Source: Oligoflexia bacterium
GTDB taxonomy: Bacteria; Bdellovibrionota; UBA1018; CAIMNF01
Direction of reading: 5' to 3'
Length of the DNA: 41,062 nucleotides
NCBI GenBank assembly: GCA_903845155.1
Contig: CAIMWN010000145.1
Span: forward strand, 1-41,062
Shown here piece by piece: positions 23,511 through 30,081 of the stretch. Position numbers and translations under genes: made by a program. The notes under the pieces are model-generated. The model was not told where the DNA came from, searched no databases, and was given only the letters and a program-made list of their open reading frames with translations. Each line of letters opens with the position of its first letter. Position 1 is the first letter of the stretch.

Positions 23511-23579
23511 CCCGGCATATTATCATTCTAATCCTGTGTTCAAAAGTCATATTTTGCATTAGCATTCCTGATAAAGGGC

Positions 23580-24515
23580 GTGAAAATGATTCATCTCATT
23601 GGATTCGGTGGACAAGGAAAAGCATGGGCTCCTTCACTTCAAGAAGCAGGAGTTCAGGTGATGGTATATTTACCGGACCACTCACACTCAGTTGCAATCG
23701 CGGAGGGTGCAGGAATTAAGACTCGCCCCATTCATTTACTCACTGAGTTTTTAAAGAAAAATGACACGGTTGTTTTCGCCTGTCCTGATCGCAAGATTGG
23801 TGAAGTTTATCAAAAATATATTTCTGCATGTTCTGAAAAATTACACCTGATTCTGATTCACGGATTTGCGATGTGGAGTGGCGACCTGATCCCCAATAGA
23901 AATCATAGCGTTTGTTTACTTGCACCCAAGGCTATCGGACCTGAGCTTCGTGAAGCGATTCAAAACTCGCAGAAAACTAAAACGCCACACTCGCTGAAGG
24001 CCGCTGTTTGTGTAAGTGCGGGTGATGGTGAGGTAGACTTCCCTCGCCAGAACGTGATGACGATCGCGACCCAGAGTTTAGCATTCGATTCTCAAAGTCT
24101 CATCGAAGCCTCCTTTGATCAAGAGACCGTGGGCGATCTTATCTCTGAACAGCTCCTCCTTTGTGGAGGAGTGTTTTCACTGCTCGAATGGACGATGAAG
24201 GAAATGCGTGATGCTCAAATCCCAGAAGCGCTCATTCACGAGGAATGTATTACCGAACTTGAACTCATTGCACGCGTGTTACGAAAAAAAGGTCTGCCCG
24301 GAACGCTTCAAGCGATCAGTGATTCCGCAAAGGCGGGTGCAGTGATGATGAGAAAACGTTTTATCGAACATAAGCTCCCAGAACTCCTTCATCTGCAAGC
24401 GAATGAAGTCCTGGATAAAACTTTTTTAAAAAATCTTTCAAACGAAGCAGAATGGAAATCTGATTTAAGTGGCGCTTTTCAAGCAAAGGCTGCACCCAGA
24501 GGAAATCAAACATGA
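23580..24515 (+). CDS. Ketol-acid reductoisomerase-like (IlvC-family) NAD(P)-dependent enzyme; candidate ketopantoate reductase
   Basis: GFGGQGKAWAPSLQEAGVQV (GxGxxG), LILIHGFAM, LLAPKAIGPE, FDQETVGDLISEQLLLCGGV, HEECITELELIA, QAISDSAKAGA align with class I KARI motifs. First gene of the pan/coa run. Confidence 0.8.
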   Translation: MKMIHLIGFGGQGKAWAPSLQEAGVQVMVYLPDHSHSVAIAEGAGIKTRPIHLLTEFLKKNDTVVFACPDRKIGEVYQKYISACSEKLHLILIHGFAMWSGDLIPNRNHSVCLLAPKAIGPELREAIQNSQKTKTPHSLKAAVCVSAGDGEVDFPRQNVMTIATQSLAFDSQSLIEASFDQETVGDLISEQLLLCGGVFSLLEWTMKEMRDAQIPEALIHEECITELELIARVLRKKGLPGTLQAISDSAKAGAVMMRKRFIEHKLPELLHLQANEVLDKTFLKNLSNEAEWKSDLSGAFQAKAAPRGNQT

Positions 24516-25312
24516 GTTCACATCAAGAATCGAAAACGGACTTAAAAAAAATAACGACCAGAACCATTCGAAGCAAAAAGGGTAAGGAGAAAATTACTTC
24601 CCTCACTGCCTATGATTATCCCACTGCATCTTGGTGTGATGAGGCTCATCTCGATTTAATATTAGTCGGCGATTCACTGGGTAATGTGATCTACGGCGAA
24701 AAGTCTACTTTACCCGTCACAATGGACATGATGCTCGCACATACCCGGGCGGTAAGCCGCGGCGTGAAACACGCACTCCTCATTGCTGACATGCCTTTTC
24801 TTTCGTATCAAACTTCCATTCCTGAAGCGATCCACAACGCGGGACGATTTTTAAAAGAAGCAGGTGCTGAGGGAGTAAAACTAGAAGGCGGCGCTGAAAT
24901 GGAAGACACCATTTTAGCGATCACTCGTGCGGGAATTCCTGTCATGGCCCACATTGGTTTAACACCACAAAGCGTGCATGCGATGGGCGGTTACCGTACT
25001 CAAGGTAAAACGCCTTCAGAGCGAGATGTGCTGATGAATAGCGCAAAAGCAGTAGAGCGTGCTGGCGCGTTTTGCGTGGTGCTGGAGTGTGTGGAAGAAA
25101 CACTCGCGAAAGAAATTACAGAAGCTCTATCCATTCCGACTATTGGAATTGGATCAGGAAATTCCTGTGACGGACAGATTTTGGTACTCCATGACTTATT
25201 AGGCCTCACCGAAGGGCATGCGCCGAAATTTGTTCGGCCGACCGGCGCATTTCGTGGCCCCATTATTGAATCCATCAAGGCATACGCAAACCGAACCAGG
25301 GAAGGTGTATGA
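24512..25312 (+). CDS. panB: 3-methyl-2-oxobutanoate hydroxymethyltransferase
   Basis: LTAYDYPTASWCDEAHLDLILVGDSLGNVIYG, VKLEGG, HIGLTPQSVHAMGGYRTQGK, IGIGSGNSCDGQILVLHDLLGL. Confidence 0.97.
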   Translation: MSSHQESKTDLKKITTRTIRSKKGKEKITSLTAYDYPTASWCDEAHLDLILVGDSLGNVIYGEKSTLPVTMDMMLAHTRAVSRGVKHALLIADMPFLSYQTSIPEAIHNAGRFLKEAGAEGVKLEGGAEMEDTILAITRAGIPVMAHIGLTPQSVHAMGGYRTQGKTPSERDVLMNSAKAVERAGAFCVVLECVEETLAKEITEALSIPTIGIGSGNSCDGQILVLHDLLGLTEGHAPKFVRPTGAFRGPIIESIKAYANRTREGV

Positions 25313-26085
25313 AACTTCTGCTCGATGTCGGCAACACCTCTACTACTTGGGGAGTTTCTGAACTCGTCCACGGTAAACCGATGCTCACTCATCAAGGCTA
25401 TGTAGACACACATCCACTCACTTCGCTTGGCGGGCGCCTACAATCACCACTTAAAGAATTATCAGTGAAAAATGCATTAAAAGAAGTTTGGGTTGCTTCG
25501 GTAGTCAGGGGCGCTACACCGGTACTAGAGAAAAGTTTTGGGACAGCAAAAATTAATCGAATTTTGCCTGGGAATATTCAAGGCATTCCTAACCTTACGC
25601 TTGAACCTGAAAAAGTGGGAATTGATCGACTGGTCAATGCCAAAGCCGCACTTCGCGAACACAAACCTCCTTTTATTATTGTAGACTCGGGGACCGCGAT
25701 CACCTTATGTGCGATTAATAAAAAGGGTGAATACTTGGGTGGAGCAATTCTTCCAGGACTTGAACTCGCCCGAAATGCACTCAGCGAAAAAACATCACTT
25801 CTGCCGAGCGTGGAAATTCGTGCGCCAGCAGGGGCACCTGAAGAGTCCATCGGCAAAAACACTGAAGAAGCGCTTCACACCGGGATAGTACTAGGCGCAG
25901 CCCATGCAATTCGTGGTCTCTACCGTGATTTCGCGAAACAACTTACCGGCAGTGAATCGCCGAAACCGGTAACCTTCATTGGTACCGGAGGGAGAATTCC
26001 ACTCCTCGCTCGTTTTATTCCGGAGCTCGATCACATTGATCAAAATTTAACACTCAAAGGGATACAAGAAATTGCATATGAATAA
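25309..26085 (+). CDS. coaX: Type III pantothenate kinase
   Basis: LLLDVGNTSTTWGV, GIDRLVNAKAAL, IIVDSGTAITLCAI, GGAILPGLELARNALSEKTSLLP. Confidence 0.96.
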   Translation: MKLLLDVGNTSTTWGVSELVHGKPMLTHQGYVDTHPLTSLGGRLQSPLKELSVKNALKEVWVASVVRGATPVLEKSFGTAKINRILPGNIQGIPNLTLEPEKVGIDRLVNAKAALREHKPPFIIVDSGTAITLCAINKKGEYLGGAILPGLELARNALSEKTSLLPSVEIRAPAGAPEESIGKNTEEALHTGIVLGAAHAIRGLYRDFAKQLTGSESPKPVTFIGTGGRIPLLARFIPELDHIDQNLTLKGIQEIAYE

Positions 26086-27304
26086 TTTTTGGTTTGAATC
26101 TTATCGCGAGTTTTTTAAAGGAAAAAAAATCCTTCTAGGTATCACCGGATCCATTGCTGCTTTCAAAGCCGTAGACCTTGTTCGCTATTTAAAAAAATGT
26201 GGCGCCGAAGTAAAAGTAATCCTCACCGAAAATGCTACTCAATTTGTGACACCGCTCACTTTTCAAACGTTAAGTGGCTATGAAGTTGGAATTGCCAATG
26301 GATCGAAGGGGAAAATCGTTCATATTGAACTCGCCAAGTGGGCGGATCTAGTACTCATCGCACCCGCCACCGCTAATGTAATTGCAAAACTCGCGAATGG
26401 AATTGCTGACGACTTACTCACGACCGAAGTGCTCGCCACCATTGCACCCGTTTATATTGCCCCTGCCATGAATCCCACCATGCTTACCCACCCTGCTACC
26501 CAAAAGAACTTGTACCGAGTGACCAAACTTGGTTACAAAGTTTTAGACACGGGCTTCGGTCTTCATGCTTGTGGCGATGAAGGCTATGGCCGCATGCTTG
26601 AGCCAGCAGAAATCATTGCTCAGTTGACGAGCCCATTTTGTTTACCTTCTAACGGTAAAACCGCACTCATTTCAATGGGCCCCACTCGCTCTTATCTAGA
26701 CCCAGTCCGTTTCATTACCAATCGCTCGAGCGGCAAAATGGGCGCGGCTCTCGCTTTCGCGGCAGAAAAACAGGGTTATCATGTTGAAATTATTTCGGGC
26801 ATTGCTCACGATCACGCCCTCCCCTTGCCGAAGCTCGCTCACGTCACCAAAACCATGACGAGTAAAGAAATGGCAGACGCCGTGCTTCGCGCCTTCCCGA
26901 AGGTGGATCTATTCTTAAGTACTGCAGCCGTCCTTGATTTTGAGTTTCCGAAAATGAATACACAAAAACTAAAAAAGGACACATTGAAGAGTGATCACTT
27001 TAAATTGGAACCCACTCTCGACATTCTGAAACAAGTGGGCGCGATGAAGCGAAAAGACCAATTCGTGCTCGGCTTTGCTGCAGAGACAGATCAGTTACTT
27101 GAGAATGCAAAAAAGAAACTCAAGGCAAAGAATTGCGACGCGGTTTTTGTGAATCCGATTTCTGCTAAAATCGAGGGCTCGACGACTGGTTTCGAAAGCA
27201 GCCACAATCAAGGCTTTCTCGTCAGTGCTAAACGTGTCATCGAATATAAAATTCAAAACAAAACTAAACTCGCCACTGAAATCATGAAGGCCATTCACGA
27301 ATGA
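26072..27304 (+). CDS. coaBC: Bifunctional phosphopantothenoylcysteine decarboxylase/synthetase
   Basis: KILLGITGSIAAFKAVDLVRYLKK, APAMNPTM, GACGDEGYGRM-like segment (LHACGDEGYGRM), PTRSYLDPVRFITNRSSGKMG. Confidence 0.96.
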   Translation: MHMNNFWFESYREFFKGKKILLGITGSIAAFKAVDLVRYLKKCGAEVKVILTENATQFVTPLTFQTLSGYEVGIANGSKGKIVHIELAKWADLVLIAPATANVIAKLANGIADDLLTTEVLATIAPVYIAPAMNPTMLTHPATQKNLYRVTKLGYKVLDTGFGLHACGDEGYGRMLEPAEIIAQLTSPFCLPSNGKTALISMGPTRSYLDPVRFITNRSSGKMGAALAFAAEKQGYHVEIISGIAHDHALPLPKLAHVTKTMTSKEMADAVLRAFPKVDLFLSTAAVLDFEFPKMNTQKLKKDTLKSDHFKLEPTLDILKQVGAMKRKDQFVLGFAAETDQLLENAKKKLKAKNCDAVFVNPISAKIEGSTTGFESSHNQGFLVSAKRVIEYKIQNKTKLATEIMKAIHE

Positions 27305-28149
27305 AAGTCTTCCATGACATTGTCTCTTACTCAGCATGGAGAACGTCCCTTCCATCAAGTGCAAGTGTAGGTTTTGTACCAACGATGGGCGCACTCCATG
27401 CGGGTCATGCGCGCTTACTTGAAGTCTCCCGTGAGCAAAACACCCATACAGTGCTCTCTATTTTTGTAAATCCTACCCAGTTTGGGCCTAACGAGGATTT
27501 ATCAAAATACCCGCGCACCCTTGAATCAGATTTAAAAATCGCAGAGGCTGAAGGTGTTGCTGCCGTGTTCGTACCAACGGAGTCAATGCTCTATCCCGAT
27601 GGGTATTCCACCTTTGTCACCGAAGAGAAATTGTCGCTGCCTCTTTGCGGAGTATTTCGTCCTGGGCATTTTCGCGGAGTCGCCACTATTGTACTCAAGC
27701 TTTTTAACATCATCGAAGCCGATCACGCTTATTTTGGATTGAAAGATGCTCAACAATTTTTTGTGATTCAGAAAATGGCCCGGGACCTGAATGTGCGGAT
27801 CAAACTTACTGGCGTAGAGACGGTACGTGAAGCAAGCGGCCTTGCTCTGAGCTCCCGCAATACTTATCTGAGTAAAGAAGAACGAACCCTTACTGCGCCG
27901 CAGTTTTATCAAATTTTAATTTCGGCCAAAAATGAATTTCAAAACGGCGGCGTGATTGCTGCTGTCCTTGAAAGCGCGCGTGGGCGACTGGCGCAGGCTG
28001 GGTTTCAAGTACAATACTTAGAGCTTCGCTCAACACCTGAACTGACTGACTTAACCGCAATGAATATACTGCCGAAGGAAATGGGTGCGGTACTGGCCGG
28101 CGCGCTTTTTTTGGGAAAAGTTCGCCTCATCGATAACATAATCTGGTAA
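27301..28149 (+). CDS. panC: Pantothenate synthetase
   Basis: VGFVPTMGALHAGHARLL, VSIFVNPTQFGPNEDLSKYPRTLE, HFRGVATIVLKLFNI, ALSSRNTYL. Confidence 0.97.
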   Translation: MKVFHDIVSYSAWRTSLPSSASVGFVPTMGALHAGHARLLEVSREQNTHTVLSIFVNPTQFGPNEDLSKYPRTLESDLKIAEAEGVAAVFVPTESMLYPDGYSTFVTEEKLSLPLCGVFRPGHFRGVATIVLKLFNIIEADHAYFGLKDAQQFFVIQKMARDLNVRIKLTGVETVREASGLALSSRNTYLSKEERTLTAPQFYQILISAKNEFQNGGVIAAVLESARGRLAQAGFQVQYLELRSTPELTDLTAMNILPKEMGAVLAGALFLGKVRLIDNIIW

Positions 28150-28260: not shown

Positions 28261-30081
28261 ATGAAATTGAAGAAATACATGGTTGCCCTGATCCTGATGA
28301 GTTCGATTCACCCTACTTGTGAAGCAGCTGCTGCGATGATGAATCTTTATGCTTCGCCCAGTGCCACAAGCGCAGGTAGCGGCCTCTCGCCAGACGAACC
28401 GACTTCACTCAAAAAAGTACAATTGTTGGCCCAAGAAAAAGCGAAAAGCGGTTACGCGGTTACTGTAAATTTAGAGGGTGGCCGGTATGAATTAGACCGA
28501 ACCATGAAATTTGGACCGGTAGACTCTGGTAGTGAGAGAGCTCCGGTCATCTACAAGGGCGTCTCTTCTGAAAAAGTAATTTTCAGTGGCGGAGCTGAAA
28601 TTAAAGATTGGAAACAGGTTCAGGGAAATCTTTATAGTGCCCCTCTACCCCGTACACTCTCGAATTTCAGACAACTCTATACCGAGAAAAATGGCACGAA
28701 CCTTCCCCGCCCTATTCGTGCAAGTTCGGATCAAATGGGGCAAATTGACGAGTGGGACGTGGATTCACAAGGTAGCTTTCTCGTGAGCGGAGCCGAGTGG
28801 AACTCCAAGAAACAAAATTTCGATAGTAACTATCCGGAATTAGTTGTTCGACGCTTTTGGATTGAAAGCTATGTCAGAATCAAGTCTATTCGACCACAAG
28901 GCCAAGACCGCTACTTGGTAACCACTGTATCACTTGATGGACAGCGTGAAAGAGGCAAACCAAGCCCCAACAAAGAATACGGTCAACCATGCTATTTTAC
29001 CAATGAAGCCGGACTCCTGAATAGAGAAAACGAATGGTATTTAGACACTAACGCAAGAACTATTTACTTTCGCTTTCCTCGCGGAGACAGAAGCGACGTG
29101 CATGTTTTCGCGCCTAAGCTCGAGCATATCATTGAAATTGATGGCGCTGAGAATTTGACTTTTGAGAATATCAACTTTCAGGAAAGCAATTGGCTTGAAC
29201 CAAGCGAGAACGGCCTAACTGGTGTTCAAGCATCTTACTTTCAACGCTCACTTCAATCCGATGATTGGTTTCCGATGACAGCGGGCGTGGTTGCAAAAAA
29301 CACTTTGAATCTTAAATTCATAAAGGACGTATTTAAAAACATGGGTGCTGCAGGACTCGAACTCACACAAGGAACCCATCACACCCTCATTGAAGGAAAT
29401 CGCTTCACCGAAATAGCGGGTACGGGCGTGCAGGTTTATACCAATATCGGAAAACTGCACGGTTCAGTCGATGGCATTGATGGGCATAATGTAAACGACA
29501 ACATGAATCCGCCAGTGGAAGATCGCTCTTCTTATGATGTCATCAGCAACAATTACGTCGATCATGTGGGCCTTGATTATACTGGTTCAATCGGAATTTT
29601 TGCGACCTACCCTGAATACCTCACTGTTTCCCATAACGAAGTTTACAATGTTGCCTACACCGGCATTAGCATTGGCTGGGGCTGGACTAGTCTGGACAGC
29701 GCGCTTAAAGGAAACAAAATCATCGGCAATAACGTTCATCACGTAATGGAAAAGTTGGATGACGGCGGAGGAATTTACTTACTCTCCAAACAACCGCGCA
29801 CCATCATCATGCAAAACTATGTCCACGAAATGCATAGCAGTGCGACGGCAGGCCGTAGACCAGTAGTGCCCATCTATTTAGATAATAATGTCCAGAGGAC
29901 CACCGTTTCCCAAAATGTTTGTGCCAACTTTTCTGGCGACAATCAAACTTCTAGCGGGATTTTTTACCGACCTGAAACCGGAGCCACCAACTCTATTGAG
30001 CCATGCGCGAGAGAAAATCGCGCGGTAACCAGTAACGCAGGCCCGACTTCTGAATTTCAGGTGATGAAAAATACCCAATAG
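28261..30081 (+). CDS. Secreted right-handed parallel beta-helix protein
   Basis: Signal peptide; DGAENLTFENINF, HHTLIEGNRFTEIAGTGVQV, VSHNEVYNVAYTGISIGWGW, NKIIGNNVHHVM coils typical of pectate-lyase-like beta-helices. Confidence 0.85.
   Translation: MKLKKYMVALILMSSIHPTCEAAAAMMNLYASPSATSAGSGLSPDEPTSLKKVQLLAQEKAKSGYAVTVNLEGGRYELDRTMKFGPVDSGSERAPVIYKGVSSEKVIFSGGAEIKDWKQVQGNLYSAPLPRTLSNFRQLYTEKNGTNLPRPIRASSDQMGQIDEWDVDSQGSFLVSGAEWNSKKQNFDSNYPELVVRRFWIESYVRIKSIRPQGQDRYLVTTVSLDGQRERGKPSPNKEYGQPCYFTNEAGLLNRENEWYLDTNARTIYFRFPRGDRSDVHVFAPKLEHIIEIDGAENLTFENINFQESNWLEPSENGLTGVQASYFQRSLQSDDWFPMTAGVVAKNTLNLKFIKDVFKNMGAAGLELTQGTHHTLIEGNRFTEIAGTGVQVYTNIGKLHGSVDGIDGHNVNDNMNPPVEDRSSYDVISNNYVDHVGLDYTGSIGIFATYPEYLTVSHNEVYNVAYTGISIGWGWTSLDSALKGNKIIGNNVHHVMEKLDDGGGIYLLSKQPRTIIMQNYVHEMHSSATAGRRPVVPIYLDNNVQRTTVSQNVCANFSGDNQTSSGIFYRPETGATNSIEPCARENRAVTSNAGPTSEFQVMKNTQ

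Follow-up and report, generated by a model that had tools for sequence, protein, structure and literature searches.

Background

KARI first catalyzes an alkyl migration and then uses NAD(P)H to reduce a hydroxylated 2-keto acid bound to Mg2+. Ketopantoate is itself a hydroxylated 2-keto acid and needs only the reduction half of this reaction. That IlvC, the class I KARI, can stand in for the ketopantoate reductase PanE is established. As a ketopantoate reductase, canonical IlvC is weak in Salmonella and E. coli and useful in Buchnera, Corynebacterium glutamicum and B. subtilis (PMC4306246, PMC11487621); this role is described for the Buchnera enzyme in PMC4306246, for the B. subtilis enzyme in PMC11487621, and for the C. 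glutamicum enzyme by Merkamm 2003, as cited in PMC4306246. A further enzyme for this step is PanG of Francisella, reported by Miller et al. 2013 and linked to the DUF2520 domain in a paper citing that work (PMC4572677); the equation of DUF2520 proteins with PanG in the present analysis rests on this citing paper.

In the literature searched, which was open-access with most subscription journals outside its reach, we found no report of a distinct KARI subfamily whose genes lie with panB, and looking there for a Bdellovibrio KARI or a panB-ilvC operon likewise yielded no description of this gene order. Here we describe such a locus from a Bdellovibrionota bacterium, contained in a window (the whole stretch of DNA that was analyzed) of 41,062 nt. 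The original prediction for this DNA was that the KARI-like gene heading a pan/coa cluster is a non-orthologous replacement of PanE or PanG.

The gene cluster and its conservation

The cluster comprises five + strand genes encoding a KARI-like protein, PanB, CoaX, CoaBC and PanC (Table 1). The original description of these genes as overlapping or abutting was confirmed by Pfam and NCBIfam matches and by overlaps between successive genes of 4, 4, 8-14 and 4 nt. One detail was revised: a start at GTG 23580 is unlikely and ATG 23586 is favored, because the AAAGGG element, which precedes the ATG by 7 nt but the GTG by just 1 nt, is well spaced from 23586 alone and because homologues begin near the same Met. 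A promoter scan returned fewer promoter-like sites than were found in shuffled sequences. The operon is followed directly, at positions 28261-30081, by a gene for a right-handed beta-helix protein that carries a GH141 insertion domain and probably a signal peptide.

Table 1. Features of the pan/coa locus, in window coordinates
Feature	Coordinates	Strand	Evidence
AAAGGG, likely ribosome-binding site of ATG 23586	23573..23578	+	sequence; 7 nt spacing
KARI-like gene, candidate for a dedicated ketopantoate reductase, 309 aa	23586..24515	+	Pfam KARI_N/KARI_C; TIGR00465 121 bits; AF2 model; conserved site upstream of panB
APKAIG loop, residues 113-118; catalytic K115 retained, I117 for Pro of canonical APKGPG	23922..23939	+	
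GDLISEQ motif, residues 183-189; metal ligands D184 and E188, S187 for canonical Gly	24132..24152	+	
panB, ketopantoate hydroxymethyltransferase; 4-nt overlap with KARI-like gene	24512..25312	+	TIGR00222 313 bits
coaX, type III pantothenate kinase	25309..26085	+	PF03309 155 bits
coaBC; start TTG 26072 or ATG 26078	26072..27304	+	TIGR00521 390 bits
panC, pantoate-beta-alanine ligase	27301..28149	+	TIGR00018 311 bits

Within the class (57-58 genomes searched), KARI was found in 12 of 57 genomes and lies directly upstream of panB in all 11 readable loci, the window's included, with coaX-coaBC-panC next wherever the contig extends; in the twelfth genome, G056, the contig stops within the KARI gene. 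Across a phylum sample of 369 Bdellovibrionota genomes, KARI was present in 149, PanB in 314 and IlvD in 8, and 104 of the 138 KARI loci that were read have panB as the next gene downstream in the same orientation, in most cases at a distance of -4 to +20 nt. This repetition at the class and phylum levels indicates that the gene order is not due to chance. Around 100 related genomes show the KARI-panB arrangement, and almost all of them are without the rest of the branched-chain pathway. A contig scan with the clade alignment, using the patterns of the window's clade, identified 12 loci, most labeled as Bdellovibrionota, Bdellovibrionales, Oligoflexia or Bacteriovoracaceae and the others only as Deltaproteobacteria or Proteobacteria; as the scan was tuned to that clade, pan-type KARIs may also occur in other phyla.

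Roughly 30 of the phylum's KARIs lie away from panB, and as most of the genomes concerned also lack IlvD, the surroundings of the gene do not by themselves account for all KARIs. Four homologues that do not adjoin panB, from genomes without IlvD (L173 in G346, L194 in G348, L242 in G351 and L174 in G352), have lost metal ligands, with D184 changed to N and E224 to G or K; the neighbors of L173 are serC/serA/purA-like genes. A very divergent second homologue in G127 (L248, contig 42) has APR for APK and altered metal ligands, and this genome carries a pan-operon KARI elsewhere. In the IlvD-bearing genomes G119 and G178, a KARI lies beside ilvD and acetolactate synthase, and G178 has two KARIs, one in the ilv cluster and one in the pan operon, which are 28% identical to each other.

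Competing reductases and the branched-chain pathway

Profile searches covered the genome of the window (4.29 Mb, 96.5% complete), a draft of 337 contigs in which an apparently missing gene could therefore sit in a gap. The gene heading the pan operon is the sole KARI of this genome; weak KARI_N matches elsewhere were considered as a second KARI and rejected, as they represent AhcY, a D-2-hydroxyacid dehydrogenase and ProC. Neither the ApbA_C domain of PanE nor the DUF2520 domain of PanG was detected by these searches, so that the whole-genome result for panE, panG and a second ilvC is what a replacement enzyme would lead one to expect. The proposal of a paralogue dedicated to the ketopantoate step stands with one correction of wording: the protein belongs to a divergent pan-operon subfamily, as described below, but as the only KARI it has no resident ilvC of which to be a paralogue.

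The original observation that no ilv genes lie alongside the KARI-like gene holds as well, and extends beyond the locus. IlvD was detected neither in this genome nor in any of 57 class genomes (controls positive in 14/14), and acetolactate synthase gave no match in the window's genome and none above cut-off in its 11 KARI-bearing relatives. IlvE is present, at 362 bits against TIGR01122. With acetolactate synthase and IlvD undetected, a valine-synthesis enzyme would lack both a substrate and a partner for the next step, and since this is the sole KARI, in a genome with IlvE and with PanE, PanG, IlvD and acetolactate synthase all undetected, pantoate synthesis is the only sensible pathway in which to place it. 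Among the three enzyme types known for the PanB-to-PanC step, the KARI-like protein is the only candidate in the genome. A D-2-hydroxyacid dehydrogenase encoded there (L003, VanH/2-hydroxyacid dehydrogenase-like) could in principle reduce ketopantoate.

Family, fold and phylogeny of the KARI-like protein

Judged by its sequence, the KARI-like protein is a divergent member of the class I KARI fold. It matches KARI_N (PF07991, 72.1 bits) and KARI_C (PF01450, 63.2 bits) above the curated Pfam cut-offs, and the same Pfam search gave no match to ApbA_C (PF08546) or DUF2520 (PF10728). Against TIGR00465, the NCBIfam equivalog model for ilvC, it scores 121 bits and does not reach the cut-off of 226.15, compared with 440.6 for an ilv-cluster KARI from the same phylum. 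The 50 best PDB matches of an AF2 model (pLDDT 90, pTM 0.85) are exclusively KARIs, with TM values by query length of 0.72-0.82 for this predicted fold, and include the C. glutamicum enzyme 6jx2. The metal and catalytic residues of KARI, predicted to be intact, are indeed present (H92, K115, D184, E188, E220, E224 and S245, and also Q10, numbered from ATG 23586); in the cofactor loop the Arg is lost and both Ser are retained, a pattern that favors neither NADPH nor NADH. As all these residues are kept, those for isomerization included, a loss of acetolactate activity does not follow from the sequence alone.

A KARI clade co-occurring with panB/coaX, which a phylogeny could reveal, was recovered in a maximum-likelihood tree of 77 KARI sequences that included six outside reference KARIs. 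A single branch with 99/97 support, found in all 200 bootstrap trees tested, separates 42 pan-type KARIs from the other 35; of the 42, 37 abut panB, and the other five were assigned to the pan type after the tree was seen: G056 and G355, where the contig ends, and G116-118, which are nested among the 37. A profile of canonical KARIs gave 85-255 bits to the pan type and 450-578 to canonical proteins, the latter including its own training set. Substitutions around the substrate loops follow the same division. At position 117, where canonical APKGPG has its second Pro, 105 of 109 pan-type proteins have Ile and 4 have Val or Thr, whereas the other 35 never have Ile and carry Ala, Pro, Ser or Thr; position 187 is Ser in 106/109 and Gly in 26/35, respectively; position 250 is aromatic in 35/35 of the others and mostly aliphatic in the pan type. 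The window protein and 107 of the 109 pan-type proteins keep all of H92, K115, D184, E188, E220, E224 and S245.

These data bear on a sub-version of our preferred explanation, a dual-substrate KARI as in C. glutamicum, which would reduce ketopantoate in the cell, keep full acetolactate reductoisomerase activity and not be specialized. The intact metal ligands, H92, K115 and S245 and the predicted fold, with its match to 6jx2, are in its favor, but the pan-type proteins form a long separate branch with consistent substitutions around the substrate loops (117, 187, 247, 250), and there is no branched-chain pathway to preserve acetolactate activity; we therefore regard this version as unlikely.

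Alternation with PanG

DUF2520 proteins occur in 19 class genomes, all of them panB-positive, and in 18 of these the gene is directly upstream of panB, in the same slot as KARI. The sole class PanG/DUF2520 gene away from panB, L111 in G015, is about 105 kb off on the same contig. Two DUF2520 proteins were compared with NCBIfam and matched no model. KARI and PanG are never found together: PanG is present in 0 of 12 KARI genomes and in 19 of 27 other panB genomes, with a one-sided Fisher p of 3e-5, and the exclusion between KARI and PanG-or-PanE gives p = 2e-6, both values being indicative only because the genomes are related and the samples are not independent. The window's own genus has both arrangements, with KARI in G000 and G007 and PanG in G004, G005, G008, G011, G012 and G014, which argues that the exchange of KARI and PanG is recent and in place. 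In most PanE-type class genomes, an HD-domain gene lies upstream of panB and PanE is encoded away from it. One genome, G017, has both a KARI-like gene and a PanE-superfamily protein, which counts against the replacement reading. In two panB-coaX genomes an HD-domain phosphohydrolase-like gene is upstream of panB (L293 in G045, L072 in G030), and in both the PanE C-domain, DUF2520 and KARI were all undetected.

The alternation also weighs on the remaining explanations. Another oxidoreductase such as L003 might be the real ketopantoate reductase, with the KARI-like protein reducing a different 2-keto acid or regulating the operon; L003 is encoded in the same genome and PanE-family lookalikes can use other keto acids (PMC4353338), but the conserved position of the KARI-like gene, its mutual exclusion with PanG and its intact catalytic residues make this very improbable. 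That the protein is an ordinary KARI, converting acetolactate to dihydroxyisovalerate to feed ketoisovalerate to PanB while another enzyme reduces ketopantoate, is scarcely credible: all KARI catalytic residues are retained and the operon link would make sense, ketoisovalerate being the substrate of PanB, but with IlvD (in the genome and 57 class genomes) and acetolactate synthase undetected it would have no substrate or next enzyme, IlvE supplies ketoisovalerate, PanG alternates in the same slot, and the TIGR00465 score is far under the cut-off.

Discussion

We consider that the product of the KARI-like gene is probably a ketopantoate reductase (EC 1.1.1.169) that derives from KARI and replaces PanE/PanG, with a probability of roughly 0.88. 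The replacement reading of the original prediction is supported on genomic grounds, by the failure to detect PanE, PanG or a second KARI and by the pan-KARI clade, and it is strengthened because IlvD and acetolactate synthase are absent and PanG fills this slot in sister genomes. Its observed basis is the conservation of gene order, the absences as far as profile searches detect them, the alternation with PanG, the one-branch phylogeny, and the intact fold and metal residues; we infer activity on ketopantoate, the preferred cofactor and the absence of any physiological role on acetolactate.

In the proposed pathway, IlvE would transaminate valine to 2-ketoisovalerate, which PanB would hydroxymethylate to ketopantoate. 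At its Mg2+ site, the KARI-like enzyme would then use NAD(P)H to reduce ketopantoate to pantoate, a step equivalent to the second half-reaction of IlvC with no alkyl shift. From pantoate, the route towards coenzyme A would continue through PanC, CoaX and CoaBC. Such an enzyme may have arisen when a KARI copy was placed beside panB and then tuned to ketopantoate, the branched-chain pathway being absent in most such lineages. With less assurance, we lean towards a broader view in which the pan-operon KARIs of Bdellovibrionota are dedicated ketopantoate reductases of single origin that gave up the reductoisomerase job, a third independent solution beside PanE and PanG that was exchanged with PanG at the same site inside a single genus and coexists with true IlvC in rare genomes.

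If correct, this assignment would improve predictions of auxotrophy, in which a spurious valine-pathway enzyme is called and a pantothenate pathway is missed. The Bdellovibrio bacteriovorus model iCH457 reports an in-silico pantothenate requirement (PMC7529429), which might, among other causes, reflect a non-orthologous ketopantoate reductase that went unrecognized. The family would also be a clear example from nature of an enzyme that came to specialize in what was once a promiscuous side activity, and G178 has a canonical-type and a derived copy together.

Compared with known systems, the protein shares with class I KARI (IlvC, EC 1.1.1.86) the Rossmann N domain and KARI C domain, the metal ligands, the catalytic Lys, His and Ser, and a predicted fold at TM 0.72-0.82. 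It differs in being about 25-28% identical to the ilv-cluster enzymes of its phylum, in falling under the NCBIfam ilvC cut-off, in its substrate-loop residues and in its pan-operon site; class I IlvC takes the product of acetolactate synthase and supplies IlvD, whereas neither of these two enzymes was found in this genome. The IlvC enzymes that act as ketopantoate reductases in C. glutamicum, Buchnera and B. subtilis place the same protein family at the PanE step, but these are canonical IlvC proteins with two jobs beside an ilv pathway, whereas here a divergent subfamily is clustered with panB and has no ilv pathway. PanE/ApbA, a distant 6PGDH-type Rossmann relative, has the same predicted reaction; the KARI-like protein lacks ApbA_C, and the PanE genes of the class lie away from panB. 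PanG, as the DUF2520 protein of Francisella (PMC4572677, citing Miller 2013), has an unrelated C domain (PF10728) and is absent from all KARI-like genomes of the class, yet in sister genomes it occupies the identical slot upstream of panB.
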